A DNA stretch of 64,000 nt from Chloroflexota bacterium (GTDB lineage: Bacteria; Chloroflexota; Anaerolineae; Anaerolineales; UBA11579): contig JABFGG010000019.1 of assembly GCA_013112575.1 (NCBI GenBank), positions 1-64,000 on the forward strand, read 5' to 3'. This document shows, in pieces, positions 8,380 through 59,581 of this stretch. Made by a program: the position numbers and the translations under genes. The notes below the pieces were generated by a model. The model was given only the letters and a program-made list of their open reading frames with translations. It ran no database searches and was not told the DNA's origin. Within the stretch, counting starts at the first letter, position 1. The number at the start of each line of letters is the position of its first letter.

Positions 8380-8898
8380 ATGGCTGAATTTGAACGCGAA
8401 CTGATCGAACAAACAATAGAAATCGCACGTGTAGCGAAAGTTGTGAAAGGCGGTCGCCGCTTTGCATTCCGTGTCACCGTGGTTGTGGGCGATGGCTCCG
8501 GCTCGGTGGGTATGGGAATCGGCAAAGCCCGCGGTGTGCCTGATGCAATCCGCAAGGCCTCTGACCGTGCCAAGAAGGAAATGAAGCGTATTAACATGTA
8601 CGGCAGCACCATTCCTCATGCCATTGTGGGTGAGGTAGCTGGCGCACGCGTGCTGCTTAAACCAGCCTCTCCCGGTACCGGCGTGATCGCTGGTGGTGGT
8701 GTACGTGCGGTATTGCAGGCTGTCGGTATTCAGGACATCCTTACCAAGTCATTGGGAAGCGCCAACATCTTGAACGTGGTCAAAGCTACGATGAAAGCAT
8801 TGCGCGAGCTCAAGTCGGTTGAAGAACAAGCGGCTATGCGCGGGAAACCTGTTGAAGAGATGTTGCCTTTCTGGGAGCGCAGTAAAGATGGCGGATAA
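8380..8898 (+). CDS. rpsE: 30S ribosomal protein S5
   Basis: 172 residues. It has an N-terminal dsRNA-binding-like domain ([19 protein letters not shown]) and a C-terminal domain ([22 protein letters not shown]). It acts in decoding fidelity. Its last 11 bases overlap rpmD in another frame. Confidence 0.98.
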
Positions 8899-44466: not shown

Positions 44467-45330
44467 TTACTCTGCTTGCCGCTGGCGATAGGCTTTGATC
44501 CAACGCATAGCATTGTCATCTTTTCCCATCGTCAAATCAGCTGCCAAAATAGCTGACCTGACTTCAGTCACCAGTGGGTTTGTAATTGGGCACGTTACAC
44601 CCGCATGAATGGCCATTGCAATAGAGGCAGCATTGATATACTTGCGATCAGGTAAACCGAAAGAGATATTGCTGGCTCCCATTGTTATGTTGACCCCAAA
44701 CTCTTCAATCACCAACTCGATGGTTTTGAGTGTAATCAATCCGGCTTTGGTATCAGCACCCATCGTCAGTGTTAAAGGGTCGATAATTATATCTTCCGGG
44801 GGAATGCCTAGCTTGCCTGCCTGCTCTATAATTTTTGCGGCTACAGCCAGTCGCCCTTCAGAGGTTTCGGGTATGCCATCATCATCCATGCATAAACCTA
44901 TAACCGCTGCGCCATGCTCTTTTACTGGTGGCAAAACTGCCTTCAATGAGCGTTCTTCACCATTGACTGAGTTGACCAGCGCTTTACCCTCATAGACAGT
45001 TAAACCAGCTGCCAATGCATTTGTGTCGTTGGAGTCAATAGACAGCGGCACATCCGTCACTTCCATCACTGCTTGCAACACTTTGGTAAGTAGCGACGGC
45101 TCATCGGCGCCGGGAACGCCGGCATTCACGTCGAGCATGTCTGCGCCAGCGGCAACCTGGGCAATCGCATCCTGACGAACAATATCGAAATTGCCTTCAG
45201 CCAGAGCGGCTGACACTTTTTTGCGGCCAGTGGGATTTATGCGTTCACCGATGATTACAGTAGGCATGTCCCGATTGATTTCAACGGTTTTAGTCTTAGA
45301 TGAGACAATTGTGGTTAGATTTTTAGACAT
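44467..45330 (-). CDS. Methyltetrahydrofolate:corrinoid methyltransferase (pterin-binding, AcsE/MtvC-like)
   Basis: 287 residues, a TIM barrel of the dihydropteroate synthase superfamily. GERINPTG (28-35), DVNAG (67-71), NSVNGE (120-125) and GASNISFGLP (218-227) match corrinoid-linked methyltransferases and not folate-synthesis DHPS, which is consistent with its place beside a corrinoid protein system. It would move methyl groups between a methylcorrinoid and tetrahydrofolate. It is the last gene of the twelve-gene minus-strand run, after the MetF-type reductase. Confidence 0.9.
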   Translation of the reverse strand: MSKNLTTIVSSKTKTVEINRDMPTVIIGERINPTGRKKVSAALAEGNFDIVRQDAIAQVAAGADMLDVNAGVPGADEPSLLTKVLQAVMEVTDVPLSIDSNDTNALAAGLTVYEGKALVNSVNGEERSLKAVLPPVKEHGAAVIGLCMDDDGIPETSEGRLAVAAKIIEQAGKLGIPPEDIIIDPLTLTMGADTKAGLITLKTIELVIEEFGVNITMGASNISFGLPDRKYINAASIAMAIHAGVTCPITNPLVTEVRSAILAADLTMGKDDNAMRWIKAYRQRQAE

Positions 45331-45371
45331 TTTATTTACCTCACACTAGAATTTGTAGATTAAAGCGTATC

Positions 45372-46859
45372 TTATACCTGGCTAGAAGCAGGCTCAGTTT
45401 CCGGCAATGGTTGCTCTAGTGGTCGGGGCAGTCCTGCTTCTTCTATCAAGCGGGGAACTATTGCTTCCCAATGCACGGCCATGACGTGCAGCCCGTTAAT
45501 ACCTGGCGTGTTTTTTAGCTTCTCAATAAGCTCAAGGGCAATCGTTACCCCCTCTTGTTGTTGTCCTTCCTTATCTCCGGCTTCGTCCATCCTTTTAATC
45601 AACTCCGGCGGAATGACCACTCCCGGCACCTCCTCGTCCATAAAGTGAGTTGCCCGTGCACTCTTGAGCGGAATGAGACCAGGTAATAGGTAGACTTTGT
45701 TTAGCAGATTGCGCTTATCCAACGCTTCTAGCCAATCGGTAAAACGATCGTAATCAAAGATTGGTTGGGTTTGGATGAATTGCGCGCCAGCATTTATTTT
45801 CTTCTCGGCCCGAATGGCCTCATATTTGGGTGGTGCCCCAAAGGGCGAAGCCGCCGCGCCCAGGAAGAATCTGGGTGGTATTTTTATCGTTCTTCCATCA
45901 AGGTAGATATCCTCATCACGCATGCGTCTGAGCATCCACAACATTTGCACGGCATCCATATCAAACTGGTCAGGTTTACTCAACGGGCCGGGGCCAAAAC
46001 GCTGGTGGTCACCCGTGATACAGAGGATATTGCGGATACCCAACCCGGCAGCTCCCATCACATCTGACTCGATGACCGTCCGGTTGCGGTCACGAGCTTG
46101 AATCTGCATAATGGGTTCAATGCCGTGGCCCATGCAGATCTTACTGGAAGCGATACTGCTCATCCGGGGTGAGGCCGAAGCGTTGTCCGTAAAATTGGCG
46201 GCAGCTACATAGCCTTTAAGCCAACCAACTTTTTTGCCAATGATCTCTGTAGAGGCCGTCAGGGGAGGAGCGATCTCTGTGACGGTGGTGAAGGCACCAG
46301 TACGAAGATTCGCTTCGAACTGAGAGATAGGTTCCTCATATTGAGGGGCATGGTATTCTGCATCCCCTTGCCACCAGTCAGGTTGGCGGATTTCTCGGAA
46401 TAAACCTTCTCTCTCCTCATCAAATTTCTGCCGGTCGCGGAAGTAATCCAGTAGTTTGGGGCCGCCACGCTTGCGCCACACCCTAATTACTTCCAACCAG
46501 GTTTCACGACCCACGCGATCACCATCCATCGGGGCGTTGATTTCCAATAACTTATCTAATTGACCCTTTTTTTCAGCTTTATCGTAAATGACATACCATG
46601 TACAAGGACGAGTGGGGTCTACTTCGCAGGCTTCTGGGGTAGCCCCGCCACACAAGCCGTTGCGCATCCCCTTTGGACAAGTCATTGGGCACACCAGGGC
46701 GGTCTCTTGTAGGATACAGTTGCCACACATCCGGCAGTCAAACAAGATTCCCTTGGTTACCGCCTCAAAAGCAGTGAAGAGCCCCATTGACAGCGATTCC
46801 TTCTCCCGGCTGTAAGGATAAAAGGGGGGTTGGTAACGTCTAGGCGAAAATAATGGCAT
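45372..46859 (-). CDS. Fused MetV-MetF methylenetetrahydrofolate reductase
   Basis: 495 residues. The N-terminal part (about 25-170) is a cysteine-rich MTHFR_C/MetV-type domain with C42, C45, C48, C57, C61, C70, C78 and C86, probably for an iron-sulfur cluster or zinc. Residues about 185-480 are the FAD-binding MetF barrel (TVTEIAPPLTAST, CITGDH, ARFFLG-like and GAQFIQTQPIFDYDRF). In acetogens MetV and MetF are separate subunits. It would oxidise methyl-THF to methylene-THF or work in reverse. TAGGA precedes ATG 46859; MGLFTAFEAV at residue 25 is a second possible start. Confidence 0.88.
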   Translation of the reverse strand: MPLFSPRRYQPPFYPYSREKESLSMGLFTAFEAVTKGILFDCRMCGNCILQETALVCPMTCPKGMRNGLCGGATPEACEVDPTRPCTWYVIYDKAEKKGQLDKLLEINAPMDGDRVGRETWLEVIRVWRKRGGPKLLDYFRDRQKFDEEREGLFREIRQPDWWQGDAEYHAPQYEEPISQFEANLRTGAFTTVTEIAPPLTASTEIIGKKVGWLKGYVAAANFTDNASASPRMSSIASSKICMGHGIEPIMQIQARDRNRTVIESDVMGAAGLGIRNILCITGDHQRFGPGPLSKPDQFDMDAVQMLWMLRRMRDEDIYLDGRTIKIPPRFFLGAAASPFGAPPKYEAIRAEKKINAGAQFIQTQPIFDYDRFTDWLEALDKRNLLNKVYLLPGLIPLKSARATHFMDEEVPGVVIPPELIKRMDEAGDKEGQQQEGVTIALELIEKLKNTPGINGLHVMAVHWEAIVPRLIEEAGLPRPLEQPLPETEPASSQV

Positions 46860-46893
46860 GGTTTTCCTAAGTTATTAATTTAATCGAAATGAT

Positions 46894-48321
46894 TTAGCTG
46901 GCTAATGAAACCCCGGCTCGCTCCATCATTTCGATACTAATTCGATTGTGTCTTTCTACAAGCGGTTTAAGTTCAAGCGGCAGAAATTGGCTATCTTTCA
47001 CAATCACTCGACCATTAATCACTGATAACCAGACCTGAGTCGGAGCGCAAGTTATCAGAGAAGCCACCGGATCGGACTGACCGCCCGCGTGTTCCAGGCC
47101 ATCGACACGGAAAGCTACTATATCGGCAGCCATGCCCGGAACCAATACGCCAATATCGTTCCGACGAAGCACTTGCGCCCCTCCAATTGTGGCCAATTCC
47201 AAGGCCTCGCGGGCTGTGAACCGGTTGGCACTAGACTCAAAACCGGGCCAGCCGACACGCTGCAACAACATCGCCTGTCTGGCTTCGCCTAATAGATGGT
47301 TGCCATCGTTGCTGGCCGACCCATCGACCCCTAAACCGACTCGGACATTTTTATCAACCATCTCGCGGATAGGGGCAATGCCCGAAGCTAAGATCATATT
47401 GCTGTTGGGACAATGACAAACACCTGAATTCGTTTTTGCCAGCCAATCGATATCTGCTTCGTTAGGGTGAACCATGTGGGCAAACCAGACATCCTCTCCG
47501 GCCCAATTGCACCATTCAGCGTACTCCACCGGGCGTTTACCGAAGGTCTCCAGGCAAAAGCGCTCTTCATCCTTGGTCTCTCCCAAATGGGTATGCAGGT
47601 TGACCAAAGGATGCTGCCGCGCAAGTTCAACCGACTCCCGCATTAAATCTGCCGTAACCTCAAAAAGTGCTGAAGGGGCCAGGCCGATGCGTAACATAGA
47701 TAAAGGCTCGGGGTCATGAAATGCTTCAATTAGCCGTATACAATCTTTGATAATATCTGGTTCGCTGTCACAAACGTGGTCAGGAGATAGTCCGCCCTGA
47801 CTTTCTCCAATGCTAATGCTGCCGCGGGTGGGATGGAAACGCACCCCAATTTCTTGAGCCGCTCGGATTTCATCATCCATTTTGCTGCCATTAGGGTACA
47901 TGTAAAGATGGTCGGCTACAGTAGTGCAGCCGCTTAGCACCAATTCGCTGATGCCAATTTGGGCACTGACATAAACGGCCTCAGGTGTCATTTCAGCCCA
48001 TATGGGATATAGGAACTTGAGCCAATCAAACAGCACTTTTCCTTCCCCGGTGCCAGTGGCACGCGTCAAGGTTTGATACAGGTGATGATGGCAATTGACC
48101 AGGCCCGGTAAAACAACACAGCCGCTGGCATCTATAACCTCATCAAAGCCGTCGCGTGCTATATCAGGACGAGTTTCAGCGATATAGCGATCAACATCTG
48201 CGCTGGCACCAACCCATTGAATTTGGTTGTTTTCGACAAGAACCGCACCATTCCTAATTTCCTCGCGGTTTTCGTTCATCGTTACAAGGACATTTGCATT
48301 TTTAATAAGTAGAGTGGACAT
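46894..48321 (-). CDS. 8-oxoguanine deaminase-like amidohydrolase
   Basis: 475 residues. The metal ligands are H78 and H80 in LPGLVNCHHHLYQTLTR, further ones in NLHTHLGET and FAHMVHP, and the aspartate in GVDGSASNDGNHLLGEARQA. LFDWLKFLYPIWAEMTPEAV, LSGCTTVADHLYMYPNG and GSISIGESQGGLSPD are the stretches I recall from 8-oxoguanine deaminase, which turns 8-oxoguanine into urate. Guanine or triazine deaminases are the alternatives. It follows the Rieske gene in the same direction. Confidence 0.85.
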   Translation of the reverse strand: MSTLLIKNANVLVTMNENREEIRNGAVLVENNQIQWVGASADVDRYIAETRPDIARDGFDEVIDASGCVVLPGLVNCHHHLYQTLTRATGTGEGKVLFDWLKFLYPIWAEMTPEAVYVSAQIGISELVLSGCTTVADHLYMYPNGSKMDDEIRAAQEIGVRFHPTRGSISIGESQGGLSPDHVCDSEPDIIKDCIRLIEAFHDPEPLSMLRIGLAPSALFEVTADLMRESVELARQHPLVNLHTHLGETKDEERFCLETFGKRPVEYAEWCNWAGEDVWFAHMVHPNEADIDWLAKTNSGVCHCPNSNMILASGIAPIREMVDKNVRVGLGVDGSASNDGNHLLGEARQAMLLQRVGWPGFESSANRFTAREALELATIGGAQVLRRNDIGVLVPGMAADIVAFRVDGLEHAGGQSDPVASLITCAPTQVWLSVINGRVIVKDSQFLPLELKPLVERHNRISIEMMERAGVSLAS

Positions 48322-48378
48322 TGGTTTTTTCCGTCAAGATTAGGTCAGTTTGTTTTCTTTGATCGATCACGCTCAAAA

Positions 48379-49350
48379 TCAGGCAGCGCCGAATGTAAGC
48401 CCTAACTCGTTCAACCACTTTCGGTAAGCGATGGCTGTTCGGTCACTACGCAAATGCAGTTCAGCTTGCAAGTCCAAAGGGAGCAGTTCTGGCCGCTGCG
48501 ATTCCACAATAGGCACATCCTGGGCAAAAATTTCATCCTGGTATGCTATGAGTTCATCTTCAGGAATATCGTGCCCATAGTTCTGAGCCATCCATATCCA
48601 GGCTGTGCTTTCCAAAATATCGTGAGGCGTTATTGTTAGAAAGATGGAGAAGCGAGGACCGTCAGACTCTTTGGTTAAACAAGCGGTTAGAGGACGATAG
48701 GCTCGATAGGTATAGGCCACAGTTTCACCCTCGCCGGTGCCAAAGGGGTCCGGCTGATAGACACGCACCCCTTTGGATGTAACTCCATCCGGCCCAATTT
48801 CTGCCTCGTAATCTTCAATTTCTGGTTGTCCTCGATCTCCCAAAATCCCTTCGTGAACAAAAGGGAAATGGGCAATATCAAGAAAGTTTTCGATAATGCG
48901 CGGACCATTGGCCTTTAGCTTGTAGGGGCCGCAGGGGATTTTGCGGAATTCTGTGTCATCCCATTCCGGGAGTGGGGGGACATCATGTTCAGGCTCACCC
49001 AGAGAAACCCACAGCAAGTTGTACTGCTCTCTGACTTGATATGATTTCACATGGGCTTTTTCGGAGGGAGTCTGTTCCGGATGGGCTGGCATCTTAATAC
49101 ATTGCCCTTTTGTGTTGTATGTCCAGCCGTGATAAGGACACTCTAATTTATCCCCTCCCACCACCTTGCCCAGTGAAAGACGTACTCCTCGATGAACACA
49201 TAAATCCTGCCAGGCTAAAACCTGGCTATTGACGCGCCACAAAACGAGATCCTGCCCCAGCAATCGAACCGCCTGTATGTCTCCTTCCTTCAAGTCTTCA
49301 GACTGCCCAACCACGAGCCAATCGTCAGTCAGAACAGGATCATCTATCAT
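48379..49350 (-). CDS. Rieske non-heme iron oxygenase, catalytic subunit
   Basis: 323 residues. The Rieske centre is C51-V-H53 and C71-P-Y-H74. The mononuclear iron site is N155-F-L-D158-I-A-H161-x4-H166. Architecture and length fit small alpha-only oxygenases such as N- and O-demethylases and the Klebsiella purine oxygenase HpxD. No ferredoxin or reductase gene is adjacent, so electrons must come from elsewhere. The position between a nucleoside-type importer and an 8-oxoguanine-deaminase-like gene favours a purine or methylpurine substrate. Confidence 0.87.
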   Translation of the reverse strand: MIDDPVLTDDWLVVGQSEDLKEGDIQAVRLLGQDLVLWRVNSQVLAWQDLCVHRGVRLSLGKVVGGDKLECPYHGWTYNTKGQCIKMPAHPEQTPSEKAHVKSYQVREQYNLLWVSLGEPEHDVPPLPEWDDTEFRKIPCGPYKLKANGPRIIENFLDIAHFPFVHEGILGDRGQPEIEDYEAEIGPDGVTSKGVRVYQPDPFGTGEGETVAYTYRAYRPLTACLTKESDGPRFSIFLTITPHDILESTAWIWMAQNYGHDIPEDELIAYQDEIFAQDVPIVESQRPELLPLDLQAELHLRSDRTAIAYRKWLNELGLTFGAA

Positions 49351-49392
49351 TTTTTATCTCCGATACTTTTTGCATTTCTATATGCTTTTCTG

Positions 49393-50385
49393 TTAATGGC
49401 TATCCTGGGTATAAGGGATGCCTAGAGCTGCAGGTGCATCCCTACGACCTCTGCGGTAAAGGAGAGCTATCAGCGTGAGCAGATAAGGCAACATCAATAA
49501 AAATTCGTAGGGTAGTGTCCCAACCCCCCGTTCCACCTGGCTTAGAGCCTGGATACGAAATTGCAAGGCATCGGCCAGGCCAAATAACAGCGCGCCAACC
49601 AGGGCCAGCCCTGGTCGCCAACGGGCAAAAATAACCAGGGCTACCGCAATCCAACCCCTACCAGCGGTGATGCCCTCTCGGAACAATCCCAATTGCACCA
49701 CGGTCAGAGTTGCTCCCCCCAATCCGGCCAGTCCAGCTCCGATCAGGGTGGCAGCGTAGCGCCCCAGGTTTACATTAATCCCGGAGGTTTCGGTTGCAGC
49801 TGGATGTTCTCCGATGGAGCGAATATTTAGACCCCAGGTAGTGTGAAAGAGAAAAAACCAGGTCAGGAAAACCAAAAATACGGTCAAGTAAACTGTTGGA
49901 TCATAACGAAAAAGAAGTTCACCTAAGACCGGGATATCGCTTAATAATGGGATGGAAATCTGCTCTAATCCGGTTACCCGCGCCGTGAGCGAGCTAAATT
50001 GCAGGCGGTAAAAATAATCTGCCAGGCCGTGACCAAAAAGAACCAGCGTCACCCCTGCAATTACCTGGTCCACATGCAAGGTGATGCTCAGCACGGCCAT
50101 CAGCAAGCCCATAGCCATACCAGCCAGCATTCCAGCACCCAGACCAAGCCAGGCGCTCCAGGAGCCTGCAAGTCCAGCCAGCGGACCAGTTTCGAGATAA
50201 TAGGCCGTCATAAAACCGCCTGCTGCGCCTACTATCATTATTCCTTCAAGACCCAGGTTCAATATCCCGGAGCGCTCAGTGATGATCTCCCCCAATACAG
50301 CCAGTAAAACCGGCACGGCCAAACGGATTCCCGCTGTTACCAGGGCAATGACAAATCCCCATTGTAGAACTTGAGACCAGTCCAT
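49393..50385 (-). CDS. Nucleoside-type ABC transporter permease (NupQ/YufQ-like)
   Basis: 330 residues with about nine helices. LGEIITERSGILNLGLEGIMIVGAAGGF is the hallmark of BMP-associated permeases, and the EHPAATETSGINV loop fits too. It shares one base with the upstream permease gene (TAATG). It forms the channel with the next protein. Confidence 0.92.
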   Translation of the reverse strand: MDWSQVLQWGFVIALVTAGIRLAVPVLLAVLGEIITERSGILNLGLEGIMIVGAAGGFMTAYYLETGPLAGLAGSWSAWLGLGAGMLAGMAMGLLMAVLSITLHVDQVIAGVTLVLFGHGLADYFYRLQFSSLTARVTGLEQISIPLLSDIPVLGELLFRYDPTVYLTVFLVFLTWFFLFHTTWGLNIRSIGEHPAATETSGINVNLGRYAATLIGAGLAGLGGATLTVVQLGLFREGITAGRGWIAVALVIFARWRPGLALVGALLFGLADALQFRIQALSQVERGVGTLPYEFLLMLPYLLTLIALLYRRGRRDAPAALGIPYTQDSH

Positions 50386-51452
50386 TATTTTTGTCTCCTT
50401 CGAGCAAGCGCATCCACAGCTAAAACCGAGAGAACAATGACTGCTTGTATGGCATCGGCTAATGAATTTGGCAAACCCGAAACAACGTGCATAGATTCAG
50501 AGCCGATGATGAGGGCAGCAAATAAGATCGATGCAATGGCTACCCCTAGGGGATGCATACGCCCAAGTAAAGCCACCAGTATCCCGGCGAAACCAAACCC
50601 TCCCGAAATATCGCCCTTCAGACGTGTTAGTTGAGTACTGACTTCAATAATCCCGGCCAGGCCAATCAACCCACCACTAAAAGCCATCACAAAGAGAATG
50701 GATTTTTCTACGCTGACCCCGGCATAGCGGGCCACGCTGGATCGTGAGCCAACCATGCGCAAACGAAATCCCAGCGGTGTGGCCCATAACAAGCCGTATA
50801 CGACAGCCACAAGGATCACTGCCAAAATTACCCCCGCATGAATGCGGCTATCAAATAACAAGGGCAACCGAGCTTCCGGCACAAACTGGGCGCTTTGAGG
50901 CAAGTAGCCTCCAGGCTCTTGTAGTGGCCCGCGTGCCATATATTGCACAAGCAGAATTGCGATGTAATTGAACATCAACGTGGATATGATCTCACTTACA
51001 CCCCATTTGATCTTCATGACGCCGGCCAGCATGGCCCATAGCATGCCTCCAACAACACCACCCAGCAGCATGATTGATAGCAGAAGAGGACGAGGCCAAT
51101 CTGGAAAGTTGAGTGCAATCACAGCACCAATTAATGCACCAACAAAAAATTGACCTTCGCCACCAATATTCCAAACTCGCGCTCGAAAGGCAACTGTTAG
51201 ACCCAGCCCTACTAATAAAAGCGGAGCAGCTTTAAGAACGGTTTCCGTTATTTGACGACTACCGCCAAAAGCGCCCCGCAGCATGGCAGTGTAAGCCTCT
51301 TGAACATTTGCGCCAGCCATCAGGATCAATAGAGCGCCAATCACAAAACCGATCACCGCCCCAATCACCGGCGGTCCTAAGGCACGCCACAGGGCACGGT
51401 TGCGAGATTCGGTTTGACCGGTATTGATGGCTTCAGTTTGTTCCTGCGTCAC
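50385..51452 (-). CDS. Nucleoside-type ABC transporter permease (NupP/YufP-like)
   Basis: 355 residues with about nine to ten helices. GLGLTVAFRARVWNIGGEGQFFVGALIG and the later FAGILVALLGRMHPLGV are typical. It overlaps the ATPase gene by ATGA. The N-terminal 20 residues are hydrophilic. Confidence 0.92.
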   Translation of the reverse strand: MTQEQTEAINTGQTESRNRALWRALGPPVIGAVIGFVIGALLILMAGANVQEAYTAMLRGAFGGSRQITETVLKAAPLLLVGLGLTVAFRARVWNIGGEGQFFVGALIGAVIALNFPDWPRPLLLSIMLLGGVVGGMLWAMLAGVMKIKWGVSEIISTLMFNYIAILLVQYMARGPLQEPGGYLPQSAQFVPEARLPLLFDSRIHAGVILAVILVAVVYGLLWATPLGFRLRMVGSRSSVARYAGVSVEKSILFVMAFSGGLIGLAGIIEVSTQLTRLKGDISGGFGFAGILVALLGRMHPLGVAIASILFAALIIGSESMHVVSGLPNSLADAIQAVIVLSVLAVDALARRRQK

Positions 51453-53014
51453 AGTGTTCCTCTGGTTTGACCATTCGTGGGTTTCGATCCGGTCATCATC
51501 AAGCCGATATCATCTATATCGGCATCGGCTGCATCCACAATCCCCATGATCTCGCCCTCATACATAACGGCAATTCGGTCACTTAGGGCCAATATCTCGT
51601 CCAGTTCTGTTGAGATCAGCAAGATTGCCAACCCCGCGTCGCGTTGTTCAACTAATTGGCTGTGCACGTATTCAATTGCGCTGACATCCAGACCGCGAGT
51701 TGGCTGTGCGGCGATCAAGACTTGAGGCTTACGATCTAGCTCTCGAGCCAGGATCATTTTTTGAGCATTCCCGCCTGAAAGTGACGCTGCAGGAGTATTA
51801 ACTGTTGCTCCGCGCACATTGAACGCATTTATCAGCCCCTGAGCTTGTTGATGGATGGCTTTCCAATCCAGCACACCTCTTTGGGTGAAAGGAGATTCGC
51901 CAATGCGCTGCAAGAACATGTTTTCGGCTACACTAAAATCGGGCAGAAGCCCCATTTTGTAGCGATCAGAGGGGACATGTGCCAACCCAAAGCGGCCCAC
52001 ATCACGCGGTGTTGAGCGGGTGGTATCGTGATCACAGATAGTTATTTGACCAGACTTAACTTTTCTCAGCCCGGCAATTGTTTCTTCTAACTCGCTTTGT
52101 CCATTACCAGCCACACCGGCAATCCCCAGAATTTCGCCTGCCCGCACTTCAATGTTCAACCCACGCAAGGCTGGCAAGCCCCGGTCACTGTCGACCCAAA
52201 CGTCAGTTAGCTGCAGGCGTGCCTCTTTGGGTTGGGCCGGCTCTTTGGCTACTTTCAAGATCACGTCCCTACCCACCATCATTCTCGCCAGGTCAGCTTT
52301 GTTCACGTCGGACGCCGGTGTCACACCAACAACCTCACCGTCGCGGAGCACGGTAATGCGTTCGCTGACCTTCAGCACTTCATCAAGTTTATGGGATATG
52401 AAGACAATGGATTTCCCCTCTTCGGTCAGCCGGTGGAGAATTGGTAGCAGATCAGCCACCTCTTGAGGTGTCAAAACCGCCGTTGGCTCATCCAAAATTA
52501 GTATCTCGGCCCCACGATAAAGTGTTTTGAGAATTTCAACACGTTGCTGCTGCCCCACAGATAGCTTGCCGACCTCTACCTCAGGATCAACAATTAACCC
52601 ATATTGCTCTGATAACGTGCGTATACGCTGATGAATCAATTTCGGGTCATCCATCAGTGGCTTGCGCGAAGAGGGTTGGCCCAGAATGATATTGTCAGCC
52701 ACACTGAAAGGGTTGACTAACATAAAATGCTGATGGACCATTCCCATACCCTGGGCAATTGCATCTCGGGCAGATGTAAATGAGACTGGCTTTCCGCGCA
52801 AGCGTATCTCCCCTTCATCCGCAGCGTGTAATCCGTAAAGGATTTTCATCAAGGTGGTTTTTCCAGCCCCATTCTCGCCAAGGATGGTATGGATTTCGCC
52901 AGGTTGTAGATCAAAATCAACTCGCGCATTCGCCACAACGCCGGGAAAACGCTTGACAATGCCCCGCATTTGAACGACTGGTTCATTTGTTTTCGTCAAC
53001 ACAGCCTGCCTCAT
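51449..53014 (-). CDS. Nucleoside-type ABC transporter ATPase, two nucleotide-binding domains (NupO-like)
   Basis: 521 residues. Two ABC domains: Walker A GENGAGKTT near residue 47, the signature LSVGQQQRVEI, and LILDEPTAVLTPQE. The second half has a degenerate Walker A (GVAGNGQSELEE) and LSGGNAQKMILARELD, as in RbsA/NupO-type proteins. It powers the importer formed by the two permeases. Confidence 0.94.
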   Translation of the reverse strand: MRQAVLTKTNEPVVQMRGIVKRFPGVVANARVDFDLQPGEIHTILGENGAGKTTLMKILYGLHAADEGEIRLRGKPVSFTSARDAIAQGMGMVHQHFMLVNPFSVADNIILGQPSSRKPLMDDPKLIHQRIRTLSEQYGLIVDPEVEVGKLSVGQQQRVEILKTLYRGAEILILDEPTAVLTPQEVADLLPILHRLTEEGKSIVFISHKLDEVLKVSERITVLRDGEVVGVTPASDVNKADLARMMVGRDVILKVAKEPAQPKEARLQLTDVWVDSDRGLPALRGLNIEVRAGEILGIAGVAGNGQSELEETIAGLRKVKSGQITICDHDTTRSTPRDVGRFGLAHVPSDRYKMGLLPDFSVAENMFLQRIGESPFTQRGVLDWKAIHQQAQGLINAFNVRGATVNTPAASLSGGNAQKMILARELDRKPQVLIAAQPTRGLDVSAIEYVHSQLVEQRDAGLAILLISTELDEILALSDRIAVMYEGEIMGIVDAADADIDDIGLMMTGSKPTNGQTRGTL

Positions 53015-53040
53015 AAGGGTAACAACTGTGAAACAATCAT

Positions 53041-53075
53041 CCCTTGGCTCCCACGATTTAGGTGGGAGCCAAGGG
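53041..53075 (-). terminator. Strong intercistronic hairpin between the binding-protein and ATPase genes
   Basis: CCCTTGGCTCCCAC at 53041-53054 and GTGGGAGCCAAGGG at 53062-53075 are a perfect 14-bp inverted repeat with a 7-nt loop. On the minus strand the trailing sequence is only moderately T-rich (ATGATTGTTT). It probably ends some transcripts, or protects the binding-protein mRNA, so that more binding protein than transporter is made. Confidence 0.75.
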
Positions 53076-53099
53076 TAGCAAAACTACAAAAAGGTGCTG

Positions 53100-54098
53100 C
53101 TATTCAGGGATAAATGGAACTTCCAGCGCACCACTGGCGATGTCCTGCATAGCAGTTTCGACCGCTTCAATGGCTTCAGCCGGAATACTGTCTTTCAGGG
53201 CCTCGTTGTAGCCAACCTGCATGGCTCCTTCCGCAATACCATAACGATAGAAGGTGTCAGCAAACGAATCACCTTGGGCGTCAGCCAGCATTTGAGCGAA
53301 TAAAGGCTCAAGGTTCCAAACCAGATTGGCTAAAACAACATCAGGACCATTCTCGGTCATGTCACCAACGTAGCCAGTGGCATAACCGCCAACCTCTTTA
53401 GCAGCCTCGATGGCGCCCAGGGCCGGGCCTTCACCGCACTCGATCCAGAAGTCAACCCCGGCATCGGCCTGAGCCAATGCCGCTTCTTTGGCTTTAGCAA
53501 TGTCTGCCCAATCACCAACAGATGTCAGGATCAAAGTAGCATCAGGATTCACGCTTTGTGCTCCGGCCAGGAATGCCTCACCCATGGCATGGCACACCGG
53601 AATGTCGAAACCGTAGAGAGCACCCAATACGCCGCTCTCGCTCATATGACCAGCCAGGACTCCAATCGGATAGGCGGCTTCGTAAAAGGGCTGATCATAA
53701 TCAGCGACATTGGCAGAAGTATTATTGATGCCCCCCGCCCAGGCAAAGTTCGTATCTGCCGCTTCTGAAGCTACCTGGAAGGTAGCATCTTGATAGATGA
53801 AGGAGTGGGCAACAACAACTTCAAATCCCTGGTCCACATACTCTCGCATTACACGAGCTACATCAGTATCCGATATGTTTTCAGAGAAGGCCGTCTTTAC
53901 TCCCTCCGCCTCCAATGCCTGCAAAGCATTGTAAGCGGCCTCGTTCCACGAGTTGTCATCCCATGGACCTGTCATCACAACAGCTACGCTTCCTGCACTC
54001 GCTTCCTCTACGGGAGCAGAAGCATCCCCACCACATGCTCCAAGTAAAACCATGCTCAAAACAATCAGCAAGAAAAGTAGGTATTTCTGAGGTTTCAT
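53100..54098 (-). CDS. BMP-family substrate-binding lipoprotein
   Basis: 332 residues. Signal peptide with lipobox LLGAC, C22 lipidated. PWDDNSWNEAAYNALQALE, the hinge region and GPALGAIEAAKEVGGYATGYVGDM fit the PnrA/BmpA purine-nucleoside-binding family. This gives the importer its specificity. Only AAAGG precedes the start. A hairpin follows the gene. Confidence 0.93.
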   Translation of the reverse strand: MKPQKYLLFLLIVLSMVLLGACGGDASAPVEEASAGSVAVVMTGPWDDNSWNEAAYNALQALEAEGVKTAFSENISDTDVARVMREYVDQGFEVVVAHSFIYQDATFQVASEAADTNFAWAGGINNTSANVADYDQPFYEAAYPIGVLAGHMSESGVLGALYGFDIPVCHAMGEAFLAGAQSVNPDATLILTSVGDWADIAKAKEAALAQADAGVDFWIECGEGPALGAIEAAKEVGGYATGYVGDMTENGPDVVLANLVWNLEPLFAQMLADAQGDSFADTFYRYGIAEGAMQVGYNEALKDSIPAEAIEAVETAMQDIASGALEVPFIPE

Positions 54099-54270
54099 TT
54101 TTTTCGCCTTTACAAAAAGAGACTAAGTGATTTATGAGAATGTTTGTATTGAGACTTATTCCTAAATACAGACACGTTATTCCGGCTACATATCAATTTG
54201 AATGCATTGTGCCTCCCTTTTCTACGGCTATCAAGCTTCTCAAACACAATCACTTTATCGCCTTTGCGTA
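54099..54270 (-). other. Intergenic region upstream of the binding-protein gene
   Basis: 172 bp between the corrinoid-protein gene and the binding-protein gene, both on the minus strand. No terminator stem and no promoter with two good boxes was found. The two blocks may be cotranscribed. Confidence 0.35.
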
Positions 54271-54930
54271 TCAGTTTGATGGAGCATCCATAAGCTGCTT
54301 GCACAACTCTACAGCACCGGCAGCATCTTCAGAATACCCAATACCAATTTCTGTGGCCCAATCACCCGTTACAGAACCACCACCAGCAATAAGCTGATAA
54401 CTTTCTCGTATCCCTAACTCTTCAAATAGGTTAACCGTGTTTTGAATGGCAGGTCGGGTGGTAGTCATCAATGATGACATACCGATGATGTCTGCGTTAT
54501 TTTCTTTGGCTGCATCGGTAAAAGCGCTGGGCGCAACACGTCGCCCGAGGTCAACGACATTGAAGCCGTGGGCACGTAACATTGTCACAACAATGTTCTT
54601 GCCGATGTCGTGCACATCACCTTCGACTGTCCCCACAACAACGGTGCCCAGAGGCTCGCTAGCCTGTCCCGAAGCGACAATGGCGTCCTCCAGAAGTTTG
54701 CTGGCTTTTTCGGCGGCTTCGCCAGCCATCATCAATTCGGGCAGAAAGTATTCACCGGTTTGAAACCGGTTGCCTACTTCAGTCAGGGCTGGAACCATAA
54801 CCTCGTTAATTATTCCCAAAGGATCTACGCCTGCCTCCAGGGCCTCTGTCGTTATGGCTTCCGCGACTTCGACATCGCCCTCAATAAAGGCTTCAGTTAA
54901 ACGTTGATGGACAGATTCAGGTACGCTCAT
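54271..54930 (-). CDS. Cobalamin-binding methyltransferase corrinoid protein (MtmC/MttC-like)
   Basis: 219 residues from ATG 54930, with AAGGAG 9 nt upstream (an in-frame TTG at 54936 is too close). The N-terminal helical cap (about 1-90) is followed by the B12-binding domain with D105-V-H107-D108-I-G110, whose His is the lower cobalt ligand, then MSSLMTTT and AGGGSV. It carries the methyl group from the MtmB-type methyltransferase encoded 26 bp upstream. Confidence 0.94.
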   Translation of the reverse strand: MSVPESVHQRLTEAFIEGDVEVAEAITTEALEAGVDPLGIINEVMVPALTEVGNRFQTGEYFLPELMMAGEAAEKASKLLEDAIVASGQASEPLGTVVVGTVEGDVHDIGKNIVVTMLRAHGFNVVDLGRRVAPSAFTDAAKENNADIIGMSSLMTTTRPAIQNTVNLFEELGIRESYQLIAGGGSVTGDWATEIGIGYSEDAAGAVELCKQLMDAPSN

Positions 54931-54956
54931 GATCAATATCTCCTTTATTTCCTTTT

Positions 54957-56348
54957 CTATGCTTTTGGCCGGGGAGCATATTCAAATTTGAGGCCAAGCT
55001 TACTCATGTCTTCCTTTACGGAGTAGTACATATCCAACCACTCCGCTGTGGGCTGAACAGTATCCACATCATAAACTTCATTGAACGGACGACCTCGGTT
55101 GGGCTCGGATAAGGTGTCTTCATAGAACTTCATGATCTTGGGGATTAATTTCGAAGCCTCCTGGCGAGTCAGGCTTAAGGATGCCCGGGAAACCTCGGCT
55201 ATGAAGCGAGTTTCCAACCCGCTGAAGTGGTCACGGTTAAACCCACCAGTAGTGCCGGCCCCTTGCATATTGAAGCCGCATACTGTGCCCACCACTGCGC
55301 CAGCCGCGCACTCGTAGAGTAGCTCTTTGGTGCCTGCGCCGGAAACCACGTAAATATCATTCAGCAAAATGATCGGTGTGTTGCGGGACAATGCTTGTCC
55401 AACCATCGCCTGGATCCAAATGCCCAAGGGATCGGTATTGTTTACGTAAGTCAGGTGAGTCAGGGAGAACATATGATAATCAGCATCGTATAGGACCACG
55501 CCCAATAGGTGATCGGCTACCGATACAACAGCCGTCCCTTCGGCTCTACCACCAAGCCCGCCAATCAATGGGGTCATGAGGTCAACCGTGATACCGCCTA
55601 CGTTATAAAGGTGAGCCACACGCGACAGCTGATCGTAGTCAGTTTTAAGCTCAACCATTTGTGAAACCAAAATGCCATCGCAGGAGCGTAAGCCTGCATC
55701 GGGATCAAAGGCGGCCATTTTGCCAGAACAGGTCAACGGAACGGCAACATCGTTGATGTGCATTCCGGGCCGTCCGGCCATACGAACGGCTTCACGAGCT
55801 ACACTGGCATCTCGTCGAGCGCCTAACAGTTCCAACGGCGTACCCGGGATAATCCCCTCGCCCATGTATGTCGCAACCGAACCAGCCCCCAGACAATCTA
55901 CTAGCGGTTCCTGAGCGTAAGAAAGCAAAATCTGCGGGTGGAATTCTTCTGATGCTGGAAGGCCCGTTGGCCCGGAGTGCACAATGGGCCGAACAGGATC
56001 TTCGACGCCACGGTGACGCATCACAACGGCATCTTTACCCATTCCCAAGATCACCTCAGAAGGAGCCTGGGCAACAATGTCAACCACTTCATCATGGGTA
56101 AATAGGATTTGACGTTCGGTGGATTGGCAGTAAGCACCAAATTCTACAAACAGTTGCAATCCCGCTTGATAGACCCTGTCAGCCATATCGTCGTCGGCCG
56201 GAACAAGGTCGTTAGCGTCGTACTTGATGTCGTATTCTTTGACCAGCTCTTTAATTCGTTTAATGAGTTTAAGCTCGAAGTCCTTTTCCTTTATGAAGGG
56301 GCCGCTTTGCGCCCGTTTCATGATTTCAACCAACCAATTGCTTTGCAT
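54957..56348 (-). CDS. MtmB-family (monomethylamine-type) corrinoid methyltransferase lacking pyrrolysine
   Basis: 463 residues, close to the 458 of archaeal MtmB. Collinear blocks include VPADDDMADRVYQAGLQLF, LGMGKDAVV, PIVHSGPTG, RMAGRPGM, SQMVELKTD and the C-terminal FNEVYDVDTVQPTAEWLDMY. By my hand alignment the pyrrolysine position falls at P216 (FDPDAG), within a residue or two. There is no in-frame TAG. It is therefore a non-Pyl homologue, and its substrate is probably not monomethylamine. It should methylate the corrinoid protein encoded next to it. Confidence 0.88.
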   Translation of the reverse strand: MQSNWLVEIMKRAQSGPFIKEKDFELKLIKRIKELVKEYDIKYDANDLVPADDDMADRVYQAGLQLFVEFGAYCQSTERQILFTHDEVVDIVAQAPSEVILGMGKDAVVMRHRGVEDPVRPIVHSGPTGLPASEEFHPQILLSYAQEPLVDCLGAGSVATYMGEGIIPGTPLELLGARRDASVAREAVRMAGRPGMHINDVAVPLTCSGKMAAFDPDAGLRSCDGILVSQMVELKTDYDQLSRVAHLYNVGGITVDLMTPLIGGLGGRAEGTAVVSVADHLLGVVLYDADYHMFSLTHLTYVNNTDPLGIWIQAMVGQALSRNTPIILLNDIYVVSGAGTKELLYECAAGAVVGTVCGFNMQGAGTTGGFNRDHFSGLETRFIAEVSRASLSLTRQEASKLIPKIMKFYEDTLSEPNRGRPFNEVYDVDTVQPTAEWLDMYYSVKEDMSKLGLKFEYAPRPKA

Positions 56349-56420
56349 AGTTTTCTCCTTGTTTCAATGTATAGAGCAGGTACCCAACGGATGACCCTTA
56401 CCACTTACTTATCCGGATTT

Positions 56421-56449
56421 ATTATCCTGCTTGTTCCATCATCAGGCAA
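56421..56449 (-). promoter_or_regulatory. Promoter of the methyltransferase-corrinoid protein genes
   Basis: Read on the minus strand, TTGCCT (56449-56444) and GATAAT (56426-56421) are 17 bp apart. The leader to ATG 56348 would be about 65 nt, ending in AAGGAG. This gives the methyltransferase block its own start, apart from the riboswitch-controlled gene upstream. Confidence 0.6.
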
Positions 56450-56487
56450 TATAAAAAATTTGCCGTGTGTATATAGTCACCTCCTGA

Positions 56488-57060
56488 TCATTGGGTAGAT
56501 TTCCCAACTGCTGCGGGCCTGCGATGCTTGCGTCGGAGTTTTGCCCCAACAGCTACAATCATGCTGATGCTCTTTTGAGGCTCTAGCATGTCACCGATCA
56601 AGCGAACTCCAATCTTGCTAGCTGTTAGATGGGTCAGTAGTTCGCCTTGCAACTCCAGCGGCCAGCGGCCAATGCCGGGCCGGTAAGATGGGCTGGTTTG
56701 TTTGCCTGTCGTCCGCGCCGCGCTCCGAATATCCCGGTACATCTTGTCGCCAAGCTTTAGCACCCAGTGTGTTCCGATTTCATCCAGCACGACGGCTGAA
56801 ACTGGCTCTTCTTGAAACAGCTCTGACACACGGCTTTCCAGAGCAGGGCCAAGGGTACAAAGCCCCAGCGTAATTGTTTCTGCTCCAGGCAAATCGGCGC
56901 TCATCACCGGCAACTCGCCTGCGGGGAAGGTCTTCTGTAGGTAACGGGGGGTTGCCAGCGCCTGCGATTCTTCAAACATATCCTCATAAACCGGCTCAAG
57001 GCGCGCACGACGGGAGCCATAGCGTTTCAACAGTGGGTCGAGCGAAAACGGTGTTTCCAT
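56488..57060 (-). CDS. Methionine synthase activation-domain-like protein
   Basis: 190 residues from ATG 57060. The segment SPSYRPGIGRWPLELQ resembles the S-adenosylmethionine-binding Arg-Pro-Gly region of the MetH reactivation domain, and LGLCTLGPALESRVSELF is common in stand-alone relatives found beside corrinoid methyltransferases. It may help to reactivate or handle the cob(II)alamin form of the corrinoid protein. The frame is open to 57132, but that part runs through a terminator hairpin. No ribosome binding site is obvious. Confidence 0.75.
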   Translation of the reverse strand: METPFSLDPLLKRYGSRRARLEPVYEDMFEESQALATPRYLQKTFPAGELPVMSADLPGAETITLGLCTLGPALESRVSELFQEEPVSAVVLDEIGTHWVLKLGDKMYRDIRSAARTTGKQTSPSYRPGIGRWPLELQGELLTHLTASKIGVRLIGDMLEPQKSISMIVAVGAKLRRKHRRPAAVGKSTQ

Positions 57061-57072
57061 ATTTTTGTTAAT

Positions 57073-57106
57073 CAAAAAGGGTGTGCCCAATATTTGGGCA
57101 CACCCT
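57073..57106 (-). terminator. Intrinsic terminator, riboswitch expression platform
   Basis: AGGGTGTGCCCAA at 57078-57090 and TTGGGCACACCCT at 57094-57106 are a perfect 13-bp inverted repeat with a 3-nt loop. On the minus strand the stem is followed by TTTTTGATT. It stands about 40 nt after the cobalamin aptamer and 13-17 nt before ATG 57060. Confidence 0.9.
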
Positions 57107-57134
57107 CTCCTCGGAGATGTGTTTCTAAACATAG

Positions 57135-57330
57135 ATCAGGATAAACGGTCTGGCTTAGGATAGGCTCTCATAAAGACCTCTATCCTTACAGTTGCGGGAC
57201 AGCACCGGAATTTTTGTCAGTTCTTGCGTCGACAAATCACCGGACTTCGCTTCAGGCTTTTACCTCTACACATCTTGCTGCAGGGCAAGTGCCTGCTCTG
57301 GCCAATCATTTATTTTCGGCCAGAGTGTCC
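57135..57330 (-). promoter_or_regulatory. Cobalamin riboswitch
   Basis: Read on the minus strand, the core TCCGGTGCTGTCCCGCAACTG lies at about 57190-57210 and is followed by TAAGG, the most conserved part of the B12 riboswitch. An AGCCAGACCG (57155-57146) corresponds to the B12-box end. An earlier TCCGGTG with the complementary arms TTTGTC/GACAAA inserted precedes the core. GGATAG/CTATCC helices flank the 3' side. The peripheral P8-P12 part is small, closer to Cbl-II type. It lies right after the corrinoid-activating gene and ahead of a terminator. The 5' boundary is approximate. Confidence 0.86.
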
Positions 57331-57338
57331 TGACTACA

Positions 57339-59381
57339 TTATGTTGTTTTATTTCGCCGCCGCGCATCAAGGATCGACTCGATGTGGGGGAAAGGGTGGC
57401 TTGAATGAGGCAGACTCAGAGCAGCCATAAAGAAAGATTGAAAATCATCCTCCATTGGCTGGTCAACGTGCTCAACCCACCGGGCAACGCGAGCGGCCTC
57501 GGCTCGTTGTTTTTTGTTGAGCAATGCAATCCGCGCCCCATCCCCAGCGGCGTTACCGGCTGAATGTACTCTTTCTAACTCGCAATCCGGGATCATTCCC
57601 AGCATCATGGCATATTGCGGGTCAATGACGCTACCAAAGGCCCCAGCTAAAACGATGTGGTCGATATGTTCAATTTCCAACTCTCGCATCAACAATTGTG
57701 CGCCCACATACAAAGCAGCCTTGGCCAGTTGAATAGCGCGCACATCTTGTTGTGAAACAATAATGGGGGAACCACCAGCCGTTTGTTCTGCTTCGGCTAA
57801 GACGAAGGCATCAACATTTTCTTCACGGATGTAACGATGAGAATCTAATGTTTTTGCAAAACGACCGTTCTTCTGCAGGATGCCAGCAGCAAACATCTCA
57901 GCTACAGCTTCAATAATCCCCGACCCACAAATACCGCGAGCCTGTACGGTGTCCGGTGCCAATTCATTATTCCAATGGTCATGCCCAATAACCTTGAAGC
58001 GCACGTCCAGGGTACCCGGTTCAATACGCACTCGCTCGATAGCGCCCTGGGCAGCGCGCATTCCGTGTGTGATCTGGGCCCCTTCCAAAGCTGGACCAGT
58101 TGGACTGGATGTACACAACAGGCGGTCACGATTGCCAAGCAACAATTCTCCATTGGTGCCCACATCAATGATGAGCATATTTTCTTCCTGACAATGGGGT
58201 TGTTCTGACAGGATTACCGCTACATTGTCGGCGCCTACAAAGCCGGCCTCGAGTGGCAAGATATGCAGCCGGGCGCCTGGGTGTAGTTTTATGCGGAGGT
58301 CGGCAGCCCGGATATCAACTGGACTTTCAACAATGGGGACAAATGGGGCTTCTCCCAGTGGTTTTGGATTCAGGTTGAGTATCAGGTGATGCATAACGCT
58401 ATTGCCCACAATGGTCATGTCAACAATATCCCTGATAGACAGAACAGCTTGTTCTACAGCATCTTCGGCCAATTTATTTAATGCCCGAATAATTGCCCGG
58501 TGCAGCCGCTCTCGGCCGCTTTTGTGTTCATTGGCATAGGAGATGCGAGACATAATGTCATCGCCATAAGTAACCTGGGGGTTCATTGCTGAAGCAGTTG
58601 CCAGGAGCTCACCAGTCCGCAAATCACACAGGTAGCCAGCTAGAGTGGTCGAGCCGACATCTACCGCCAGGCCAATCGGCTGCTCCTGATACCCGGCTTG
58701 AACGCGAGTTACCAGGCGATCATCCCAAACAGTCAGGGTTATGGCCCCATCAGAATGGCGTAAGGTATCAGATAGTTCTTTTAAAGCAGCATAATCGAAC
58801 TCGACTTTGTCCAATCCAAAGCGTTCCTCCAGTTCTGCCAATGCCCGTTCCCAATCACCCGCACCACCTTGCTCAGGCGGATCCAATTCGAGATAATATA
58901 GGCGAATAATCGGATCTGTTTCAATCGTGCGCCCGGAGGCGGCCTTAAGAACCACCTGTTTTTGAGCCTGGCTTTCTTCCGGAACAGTTACCAAAATATC
59001 GCCAATAACACGTGCCGAGCACGAGAACCGGCTATCTGTCGGAGAATTTTGCTTTTGCTGGAAACGTTGTTCCCGTGAGCTCATCGGGGTCAGATGGGAA
59101 GCAATGGAATGTATATTGTGCTTGGGAAATTTCCCTTCTTCCACCCGCACAGTACATTTATTGCAGGTTTCATGTCCACCACAAATGGCTTCAATGCCTA
59201 CCCCTAGATGCCGGGCAGCCTCTAAAAGTGTGGTCCCTTCAGGTACATTCCCCGACTGACCAGAGGGCTGAAAGATTACTTTGTACGTTTGATTGGAATG
59301 GGAAGTTAACGAAGGAGACAGTTTTGCATCGGTCAGGCTCGAGTTCTGCGCAGGATCTGCAAGAGACTCGTGATCCGTCAA
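57339..59381 (-). CDS. Corrinoid-activating [2Fe-2S] ferredoxin-ASKHA protein (RACE/RamA-like, DUF4445)
   Basis: 680 residues from a TTG start with AGGG upstream; no better Met is available before the first domain. The N-terminal plant-type [2Fe-2S] domain has C67-x5-C73-x2-C76 and C121. A linker follows, then an ASKHA ATPase region with DVGSTTLAG (241-249), VGNSVMHHL and LIIDVGTNGELLLGN, and AGAFGS near the end. Such proteins use ATP to drive reduction of inactive Co(II) corrinoid to Co(I). It is first in the minus-strand run, behind a perfect promoter. Confidence 0.92.
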   Translation of the reverse strand: MTDHESLADPAQNSSLTDAKLSPSLTSHSNQTYKVIFQPSGQSGNVPEGTTLLEAARHLGVGIEAICGGHETCNKCTVRVEEGKFPKHNIHSIASHLTPMSSREQRFQQKQNSPTDSRFSCSARVIGDILVTVPEESQAQKQVVLKAASGRTIETDPIIRLYYLELDPPEQGGAGDWERALAELEERFGLDKVEFDYAALKELSDTLRHSDGAITLTVWDDRLVTRVQAGYQEQPIGLAVDVGSTTLAGYLCDLRTGELLATASAMNPQVTYGDDIMSRISYANEHKSGRERLHRAIIRALNKLAEDAVEQAVLSIRDIVDMTIVGNSVMHHLILNLNPKPLGEAPFVPIVESPVDIRAADLRIKLHPGARLHILPLEAGFVGADNVAVILSEQPHCQEENMLIIDVGTNGELLLGNRDRLLCTSSPTGPALEGAQITHGMRAAQGAIERVRIEPGTLDVRFKVIGHDHWNNELAPDTVQARGICGSGIIEAVAEMFAAGILQKNGRFAKTLDSHRYIREENVDAFVLAEAEQTAGGSPIIVSQQDVRAIQLAKAALYVGAQLLMRELEIEHIDHIVLAGAFGSVIDPQYAMMLGMIPDCELERVHSAGNAAGDGARIALLNKKQRAEAARVARWVEHVDQPMEDDFQSFFMAALSLPHSSHPFPHIESILDARRRNKTT

Positions 59382-59497: not shown

Positions 59498-59526
59498 ATT
59501 ATACTCATTTTTTGAGCAGTTGTCAA
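59498..59526 (-). promoter_or_regulatory. Perfect-consensus promoter of the corrinoid operon
   Basis: On the minus strand TTGACA (59526-59521) and TATAAT (59503-59498) are exactly 17 bp apart: full match to the housekeeping sigma consensus. The leader is about 110 nt. Such a strong promoter usually needs a repressor. Confidence 0.85.
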
Positions 59527-59529: not shown

Positions 59530-59581
59530 CCCCGATGTTTTTTTGTATAATTAGGCAAGTCTTATTTCAAAAGTGGTGAAG

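Follow-up and report, generated by a model that had tools for sequence, protein, structure and literature searches.

A twelve-gene island with an importer and two candidate demethylases

The window analyzed here is a stretch of 64,000 nucleotides (G000:C19:1-64000) from a draft genome of a Chloroflexota bacterium of the order Anaerolineales, which comprises 5.13 Mb in 44 contigs. Positions 44467 to 59381 hold twelve long open reading frames (ORFs), all on the minus strand, that encode a corrinoid methyl-transfer set, an ABC importer of the BMP/Nup type, a Rieske oxygenase, and an amidohydrolase of the 8-oxoguanine-deaminase type. The main new finding is that an O2-dependent Rieske oxygenase and an O2-independent corrinoid methyltransferase of the MtmB family have been exchanged around one importer with one binding site. 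Successive ORFs of the island are spaced from an overlap of a few bases up to 206 bases, and the plus-strand ORFs within the same interval, none longer than 131 amino acids, overlap the twelve genes. An earlier note on this DNA had described twelve same-strand genes and named their families; all of these ORFs are present and the profile matches agree with the names.

Transcription would begin with a reductive activator of corrinoid proteins of the RACo/AcsV type bearing an N-terminal 2Fe-2S domain (57339-59381; PF14574, PF17651, PF17650, and PF00111, with NF040756 below its cut-off). The next gene (56488-57132) encodes a protein of 214 amino acids that has no Pfam match even at an E value of 10 and matches the Protein Data Bank (PDB) entry 1j6r, titled methionine synthase, weakly (E 4e-4), in line with the MetH-activation-like label it had been given; a homologue with 58-61% identity adjoins RACo at a related locus (L033). 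An AlphaFold model of this protein, built from a two-row alignment, had a pLDDT of 43 and was too poor to be used. The MtmB-family methyltransferase (54957-56348; PF05369, 355 bits against a cut-off of 25) aligns with the pyrrolysine enzyme MtmB (1L2Q) over most of its length (E about 1e-75). Asn199 stands at the position of Pyl202, and the gene contains no internal in-frame stop, the mark of a pyrrolysine-dependent enzyme. A corrinoid (B12-binding) protein follows (54271-54936; PF02607 and PF02310, TIGR02370 below cut-off).

The importer consists of a BMP-family substrate-binding lipoprotein (53100-54098; PF02608; PDB matches including 3s99, 7x0r, and AtzT 6pi5), a NupA-type ATPase with two PF00005 stretches that adjoins BMP in relatives as well (51449-53014), and two PF02653 permeases of the NupP (50385-51452) and NupQ (49393-50385) types. 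The gap between the BMP gene and the ATPase gene contains, at 53041-53075 on the minus strand, a G+C-rich hairpin of 14 pairs with a T-rich stretch behind it, which could perhaps raise the level of BMP. Downstream of the importer are the Rieske non-heme iron oxygenase, a proposed O2-dependent demethylase or hydroxylase (48379-49350; PF00355 and PF19112, VanA_C), and the 8-oxoguanine-deaminase-type amidohydrolase (46894-48321; NF006055, 602.5 bits against a cut-off of 532). The latter, whose deaminase activity is a predicted one, matches the PDB entries 3hpa and 7ww2 with long blocks of identity. The island ends with a fused methylene-tetrahydrofolate reductase (45372-46859; PF12225 and PF02219, which we take to be MetV and MetF) and a methyl-tetrahydrofolate:corrinoid methyltransferase (44467-45330; NF005719, 297.4 bits against 259; PF00809).

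One importer with exchanged partners

A BMP at least 49% identical to that of the window occurs in 15 of 396 genomes of the class, the window genome included, and the next best match drops to 36%. Eight of these 15 genomes carry the MtmB clade of the window. In five (G716, G693, G623, G595, and G737), a Rieske oxygenase 69-72% identical to that of the window adjoins BMP, and no MtmB was seen beside it; four of the five are not among the 28 class genomes with an MtmB match, and the MtmB of G693 resides on another contig. For loci L179-L187, one annotation listed matches above 33% identity only, an unfiltered annotation likewise labelled no MtmB, and L183 and L184 are cut near the BMP-Rieske genes by contig ends. 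Another genome, G708, holds a corrinoid gene (68% identity), BMP, and Nup genes in the order of the window, and after them a decayed remnant of a Rieske gene, its final 38 codons (82% identity); its contig ends beyond the corrinoid gene, before any MtmB could show. G727 has neither the MtmB clade nor a Rieske gene beside BMP. At L179, a stretch of 53 C-terminal Rieske codons (8629-8787, 81% identity) lies just before the full Rieske gene, and a further copy (59%) lies after the importer.

The ligand site of the window BMP, mapped from the guanine-bound AtzT structure, consists of W51, S99, F100, V168, M172, W197, C221, and E223. All but the G727 protein, 14 of the 15 BMPs, share seven of these eight residues (W51, S99, F100, M172, W197, C221, and E223), and the remaining position, 168, is valine in 12 of the 14 and alanine or serine in two. 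The BMP of a genome outside the class, G019, has the shared set except for a glutamate at 172. The set is missing from 12 other BMP matches, among them that of G727, four of the 12 being incompletely covered. Thus a single importer, which apparently serves a single ligand, goes with a Rieske oxygenase in some genomes and with a corrinoid MtmB in others, and the window holds both.

The four importer proteins of 14 loci were concatenated for a tree, with two further importers from the window genome as outgroups. Its three Rieske-linked loci branch between the group of the window and that of the MtmB-linked G472 (support 97.7/98 and 100/100), with the MtmB-linked G019 outside; L034, L180, L183, and L185, in which the four genes are not all in one place, were left out. 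A tree of BMP alone gives the same order with weaker support, and a single change is allowed in 12% of its bootstrap trees. On this branching order, the partner would have been exchanged at least two times, or else the ancestor would have had both partners and most lines lost one. The window and G708 fit the latter view. A further genome, G475, also holds both: one of its contigs carries MtmB with the importer, another a Rieske gene of 57% identity next to RACo.

The best NCBIfam name for all four importer parts is 'putative B6 ABC transporter' (NF047927-NF047930), a label we rejected because every score falls below its cut-off (112.7 against 400, 214.8 against 465, 192.6 against 400, and 498.1 against 670). 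Elsewhere in the window genome, one BMP importer (L145) stands beside a xanthine dehydrogenase of the selenium-dependent type that exceeds its cut-off, and another (L188) beside cytosine-deaminase-like and xanthine-dehydrogenase-type proteins that are both below theirs. Both sets of neighbors would fit a role of BMP importers in nucleobase uptake in this organism.

The closest solved structures to the window Rieske oxygenase are SxtDIOX and SxtT (E 1e-78 to 1e-76; 266 and 262 bits), followed by NdmA and NdmB (E about 1e-39; 139 bits for NdmA). As described in a review, NdmA removes a methyl group from caffeine, and SxtT and GxtA (6WNC) hydroxylate their substrates (PMC12445004). The window enzyme may do either. 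Related Rieske proteins occur in 51 of the 396 class genomes at an E value of 1e-50. Among 59 places listed, we inspected that of the window, the five beside a window-type BMP, and 15 further loci with 54-67% identity. Five of these 15 have BMP- or Nup-type genes nearby (L207, L210, L211, L212, and L213, the last with no BMP seen). The BMPs of L210 and L212, which belong to another lineage, carry W, S, F, E, L, and W at the mapped positions, nearer to the guanine site of AtzT than the window BMP is, the last two positions being uncovered. At a sixth of the 15, L208 (G475:C31, 6605-9579), away from the MtmB locus of G475, the 57% identical Rieske gene directly adjoins a RACo 61% identical to that of the window, making an electron link between the 2Fe-2S domain of RACo and the Rieske oxygenase possible there. 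A fusion of the two was considered and rejected; a long ORF spans both, but the Rieske protein is encoded in another frame and the genes merely adjoin.

MtmB loci, their neighbors, and controls

The MtmB family is rare. A profile search found PF05369 in seven of 400 genomes of the phylum, and a protein search found matches in six of 61 relatives and 28 of 396 class genomes, the window genome being counted in each case; no match was found on plasmids. Among named contigs, the four with the closest MtmB all belong to Chloroflexi/Anaerolineae assemblies. Of 46 MtmBs, three were partial and left out; a tree of the remaining 43, all full-length, places the window MtmB in a nine-member clade with support of 100/100, and all nine have asparagine at the pyrrolysine site.

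BMP and Nup genes are found on the MtmB contig in six of these nine members: the window, L022 (G184), L034 (G613), L036 (G475), L075 (G472), and L076 (G499). The contigs of the other three stop before BMP could show. At L033, RACo, the 214-amino-acid protein, MtmB, and the corrinoid protein are followed by a 78% identical deaminase where BMP would be expected, and there the contig ends; L078 (G625) stops inside a second MtmB, and on another contig of the same genome, an MtmB of that kind is cut by the contig start and BMP and Nup come after it; L051 (G523) is a contig of 3,392 bases. As far as the contigs reach, the other clade loci lack a full Rieske gene. L034, L035, and L036 correspond by coordinates to G613:C413, G625:C512, and G475:C51 and were counted once each. 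Because PF05369 is rare and its linkage to the importer recurs in relatives, the arrangement of the island is more than chance. The earlier note treated the island as one unit and tied the importer to the corrinoid genes; both points are supported.

The linkage extends to a second MtmB subclade. In G019, a 46-kb contig (C42, L020-L021) repeats the island theme in richer form. Besides a corrinoid protein and two MtmBs, it carries BMP and Nup genes, an NMT1-type binding protein, an ECF-type transporter, a PF01979 amidohydrolase, and two enzymes of the xanthine-dehydrogenase type. NMT1/THI5-type binding proteins also occur beside other MtmBs. In G693, downstream of a corrinoid protein and MtmB lies an adenine deaminase that exceeds its cut-off (613.6 against 472.5), and xanthine-dehydrogenase-type subunits beside this MtmB score below theirs. 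G475 has two IMP dehydrogenases, of which one lies after the importer and scores above its cut-off.

As controls, 40 loci of the methyltransferase MttB, which has no match in the window genome, were picked by hand among the matches listed, all from MtmB-bearing genomes and some cut by contig ends. Within 8 kb, BMP lies near eight of 38 MtmB loci and none of the 40 MttB loci, and a deaminase-type PF01979 amidohydrolase or an adenine deaminase near seven of 38 and one of 40, respectively; the probes for BMP, deaminase, xanthine dehydrogenase, and aldehyde ferredoxin oxidoreductase were drawn from MtmB loci, which favors the MtmB counts. Since the loci are related, and since G625:C512 and G625:C320 probably belong to a single cluster, 8/38 against 0/40 does not represent independent events. 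The ten genomes searched contain 2-14 BMP matches each, from which we estimate that adjacency within 8 kb would arise by chance in a few per cent of cases. Aldehyde ferredoxin oxidoreductases lie near MtmB at four of 38 loci (L028, L088, L093, and L024) and near MttB at two of 40.

Upstream of the island, between RACo and a divergent TetR-family gene (59573-60307, plus strand; PF00440) that is a candidate regulator, lies a promoter-like site matching the sigma-70 consensus at 12 of 12 positions (59498-59526, minus strand). The region contains 15 promoter-like sites against 19.2 expected by shuffling; since such sites do not exceed expectation, only the 12/12 match is notable. Downstream, the next gene (42980-44209) is on the opposite strand, and beyond it a second PF01979 amidohydrolase (41305-42699, minus strand) has 5'-deoxyadenosine deaminase as its best model, below cut-off.

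A candidate pathway, its rivals, and known systems

We propose, with a probability of roughly one half, that the island is an operon for the uptake and demethylation of an N-methylated purine-like heterocycle by oxic and anoxic routes. Judging from its family and binding site, the BMP and Nup importer would bring the compound in. Without O2, the non-pyrrolysine MtmB would move the methyl group onto the corrinoid protein, whose cobalt RACo, perhaps with the 214-amino-acid protein, would keep reduced. The methyl-tetrahydrofolate:corrinoid methyltransferase would then hand the methyl group to tetrahydrofolate, and MetVF would oxidize it. With O2, the Rieske oxygenase would take the methyl group off oxidatively or hydroxylate the ring, and the deaminase would hydrolyze an exocyclic amine of the substrate or product. 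The window genome encodes the acetyl-CoA synthase CdhC and the heme-copper oxidase COX1; hence methyl-tetrahydrofolate could be oxidized or go to acetyl-CoA, and growth with or without O2 is plausible. What the sequences show is the gene content, the recurring linkage, the exchange of partners beside one importer, and the common BMP site; we infer that a single methyl group is the target of both enzymes, that the ligand is a purine, and that the steps take this order.

Signs of purine chemistry come from several different neighbors, as the earlier note had anticipated, and its idea of a methylated purine-like substrate is reasonable. The deaminase exceeds the NF006055 cut-off, the Rieske oxygenase is kin to NdmA and NdmB, and the structural matches of BMP include an adenine-bound and a guanine-bound protein. 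Purine-type genes recur in relatives, with adenine deaminase and a xanthine-dehydrogenase type in G693, an amidohydrolase and a xanthine-dehydrogenase type in G019, and IMP dehydrogenase in G475. In the genomes G000 and G019, IMP dehydrogenase gave only partial, weak matches (below 30 bits), as against its presence in all 14 control genomes; assembly gaps could account for this. Candidate ligands are compounds of the 7-methylguanine type, methylxanthines, and methylated nucleosides, with creatinine-like compounds less likely.

A number of observations weigh against this proposal. The window BMP retains the aromatic sandwich of AtzT (Tyr45 as W51 and Trp194 as W197) and its Ser-Phe pair, whereas the residues that read guanine in AtzT, Glu165, Asn169, Asn218, and Asn220, are replaced by V168, M172, C221, and E223. 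From these features and the site shared among relatives, we read the ligand as one flat, purine-like molecule that is not guanine. As far as the contigs reach, only two of the nine clade loci, the window and L033, show the deaminase, and other purine-type genes vary from locus to locus; among 13 related loci, MetVF was not found, and the methyl-tetrahydrofolate methyltransferase was found at L036 alone. For 7-methylguanine, the example given in the earlier note, the replaced residues and the scarcity of the deaminase leave no specific support, and it is one option among several.

Other contrary points concern the wider families. None of the twelve island genes encodes an NdmD-like Rieske reductase. 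Nine of the 15 further Rieske loci have none of the other island genes; the BMPs beside the more distant Rieske genes, where covered, lack the binding-site set of the window, so that the Rieske family probably serves more than one ligand. In the MtmB tree, the 13 rows that we labelled as purine-linked are not one clade, requiring 7 changes against 11.3 in shuffles. At three MtmB loci (L019, L087, and L094), an ECF importer of the PF09819 type, presumably YkoE, takes the place of BMP, which suggests a different imported ligand for that branch, and the MtmB of G693 nests with these three, showing that the MtmB family is not uniform. Xanthine dehydrogenase is not enriched within 8 kb of MtmB (three of 38 loci against six of 40 for MttB) and was rejected as a general marker; compared with the BMP counts, this marks the importer tie, unlike that of xanthine dehydrogenase, as a specific trait of part of the MtmB family. 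Any one of BMP, xanthine dehydrogenase, deaminase, or adenine deaminase lies near 13 of 38 MtmB loci and also near seven of 40 MttB loci.

The earlier note saw a single linear pathway. In relatives, the importer mostly stands beside either the Rieske gene or the corrinoid set, a pattern that suggests parallel routes rather than serial steps. The note had named relatives that split the importer and Rieske genes from the corrinoid genes as evidence that would refute it; such relatives exist, in the five genomes described above, and since their BMP site is the same, the interpretation of a shared ligand still stands. A serial arrangement, in which the Rieske oxygenase hydroxylates the ring, the deaminase removes an amine, and MtmB removes a methyl group at another position, would agree with the hydroxylating kin of the Rieske protein, as SxtDIOX and SxtT match ahead of NdmA and PMC12445004 describes SxtT and GxtA as hydroxylases. 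It would agree as well with the oxidized ring expected by an 8-oxo-type deaminase and with the presence of all three genes in the window. We nonetheless consider it unlikely, given the importer and Rieske genes without an adjacent MtmB in five genomes, the other clade loci without a full Rieske gene within their contigs, and G708, which retained its corrinoid gene and importer while its Rieske gene decayed.

The ligand might instead be a non-purine N-methylated cyclic guanidine or imide, such as creatinine or N-methylhydantoin, degraded by the importer, the deaminase, and either demethylase. Creatinine shares the 2-amino-4-oxo motif of isocytosine, and SxtDIOX and SxtT, the nearest kin of the window Rieske protein, act on cyclic guanidinium compounds. 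PMC6186785 links 8-oxoguanine deaminases to isocytosine, which has a 2-amino-4-oxo ring. The adenine deaminase, xanthine-dehydrogenase-type, and IMP dehydrogenase neighbors in relatives, however, point to purines and render this alternative quite improbable. The name of the best importer models, together with the NMT1/THI5-type binding proteins and YkoE-type importers beside other MtmBs, raises the thought of a vitamin-like heterocycle of the B6, thiamine-precursor, flavin, or N-methylpyridine type; with all four B6 scores well under their cut-offs, and with deaminase and Rieske kinships that suit purines better, we give this idea little credence. Finally, MtmB could be a quaternary amine demethylase like MtqB, with the importer, Rieske, and deaminase genes as incidental neighbors. 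In PMC13044021, MtqB, the sole characterized non-pyrrolysine MtmB, acts on tetramethylammonium and choline, a further point against our proposal, but the linkage of one importer type to six of nine clade members and to the second subclade in G019 makes incidental proximity very improbable.

Returning to methylated purine-like compounds as the substrate, a broader and more tentative proposition, which we hold to be somewhat doubtful, is that a branch of non-pyrrolysine MtmBs demethylates N-methylated purines or nucleosides without O2, that the importer has been paired, lost, and re-paired with MtmB and Rieske partners, and that the window would represent both routes for one substrate. A literature search, in the titles and abstract openings of the matches listed and mostly without subscription journals, found no corrinoid-dependent purine demethylation, consistent with the statement in the earlier note that no pathway with this combination had been described. 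If the substrate is a methylated purine, the island would give a corrinoid-based route, independent of O2, by which methylated nucleobases arising in RNA turnover or from purine alkaloids could be demethylated and their methyl groups carried into the folate pool, and thus a new way for microbes to use these compounds without air. The exchange of partners offers a concrete and testable substrate class for one branch of non-pyrrolysine MtmBs, and oxic and anoxic demethylases for one ligand in one operon would clearly illustrate how two unrelated enzymes can change places at a single transporter.

MttB-type methylotrophy (MtgB, MtcB, and MtyB) employs a methyltransferase, a corrinoid protein, RACo, and a tetrahydrofolate logic, as in the island, with a methyltransferase of a different family. 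The island BMP belongs with AtzT and the Brucella BMP 3s99 in family, aromatic sandwich, and Ser-Phe pair, although of the side chains that hydrogen-bond guanine in AtzT only Ser97 is kept. The island amidohydrolase passes the curated cut-off for 8-oxoguanine deaminase (NF006055; 7WW2) and, unlike it, sits in a methyl-transfer operon. NdmA and NdmB (6ICK and 6ICL) are Rieske oxygenases of the same broad branch as that of the island; they are described in PMC12445004 as O2-dependent and working with the reductase NdmD, whereas the island enzyme is nearer to SxtT and SxtDIOX. The monomethylamine methyltransferase MtmB (1L2Q/1NTH) shares PF05369 and a near full-length alignment with the island protein, which has asparagine in place of pyrrolysine. 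According to PMC13044021, no non-pyrrolysine MtmB had a demonstrated function before MtqB, and its tree of 1,061 sequences gives the enzymes outside the highlighted clades as being of unknown function. As described there, MtqB and MtqC of Methanococcoides methylutens Q3c resemble the island in pairing a non-pyrrolysine MtmB with its own corrinoid protein, but they belong to a methanogen and deliver the methyl group to coenzyme M, whereas in the island the acceptor is presumably tetrahydrofolate and an importer, a deaminase, and a Rieske oxygenase are added.

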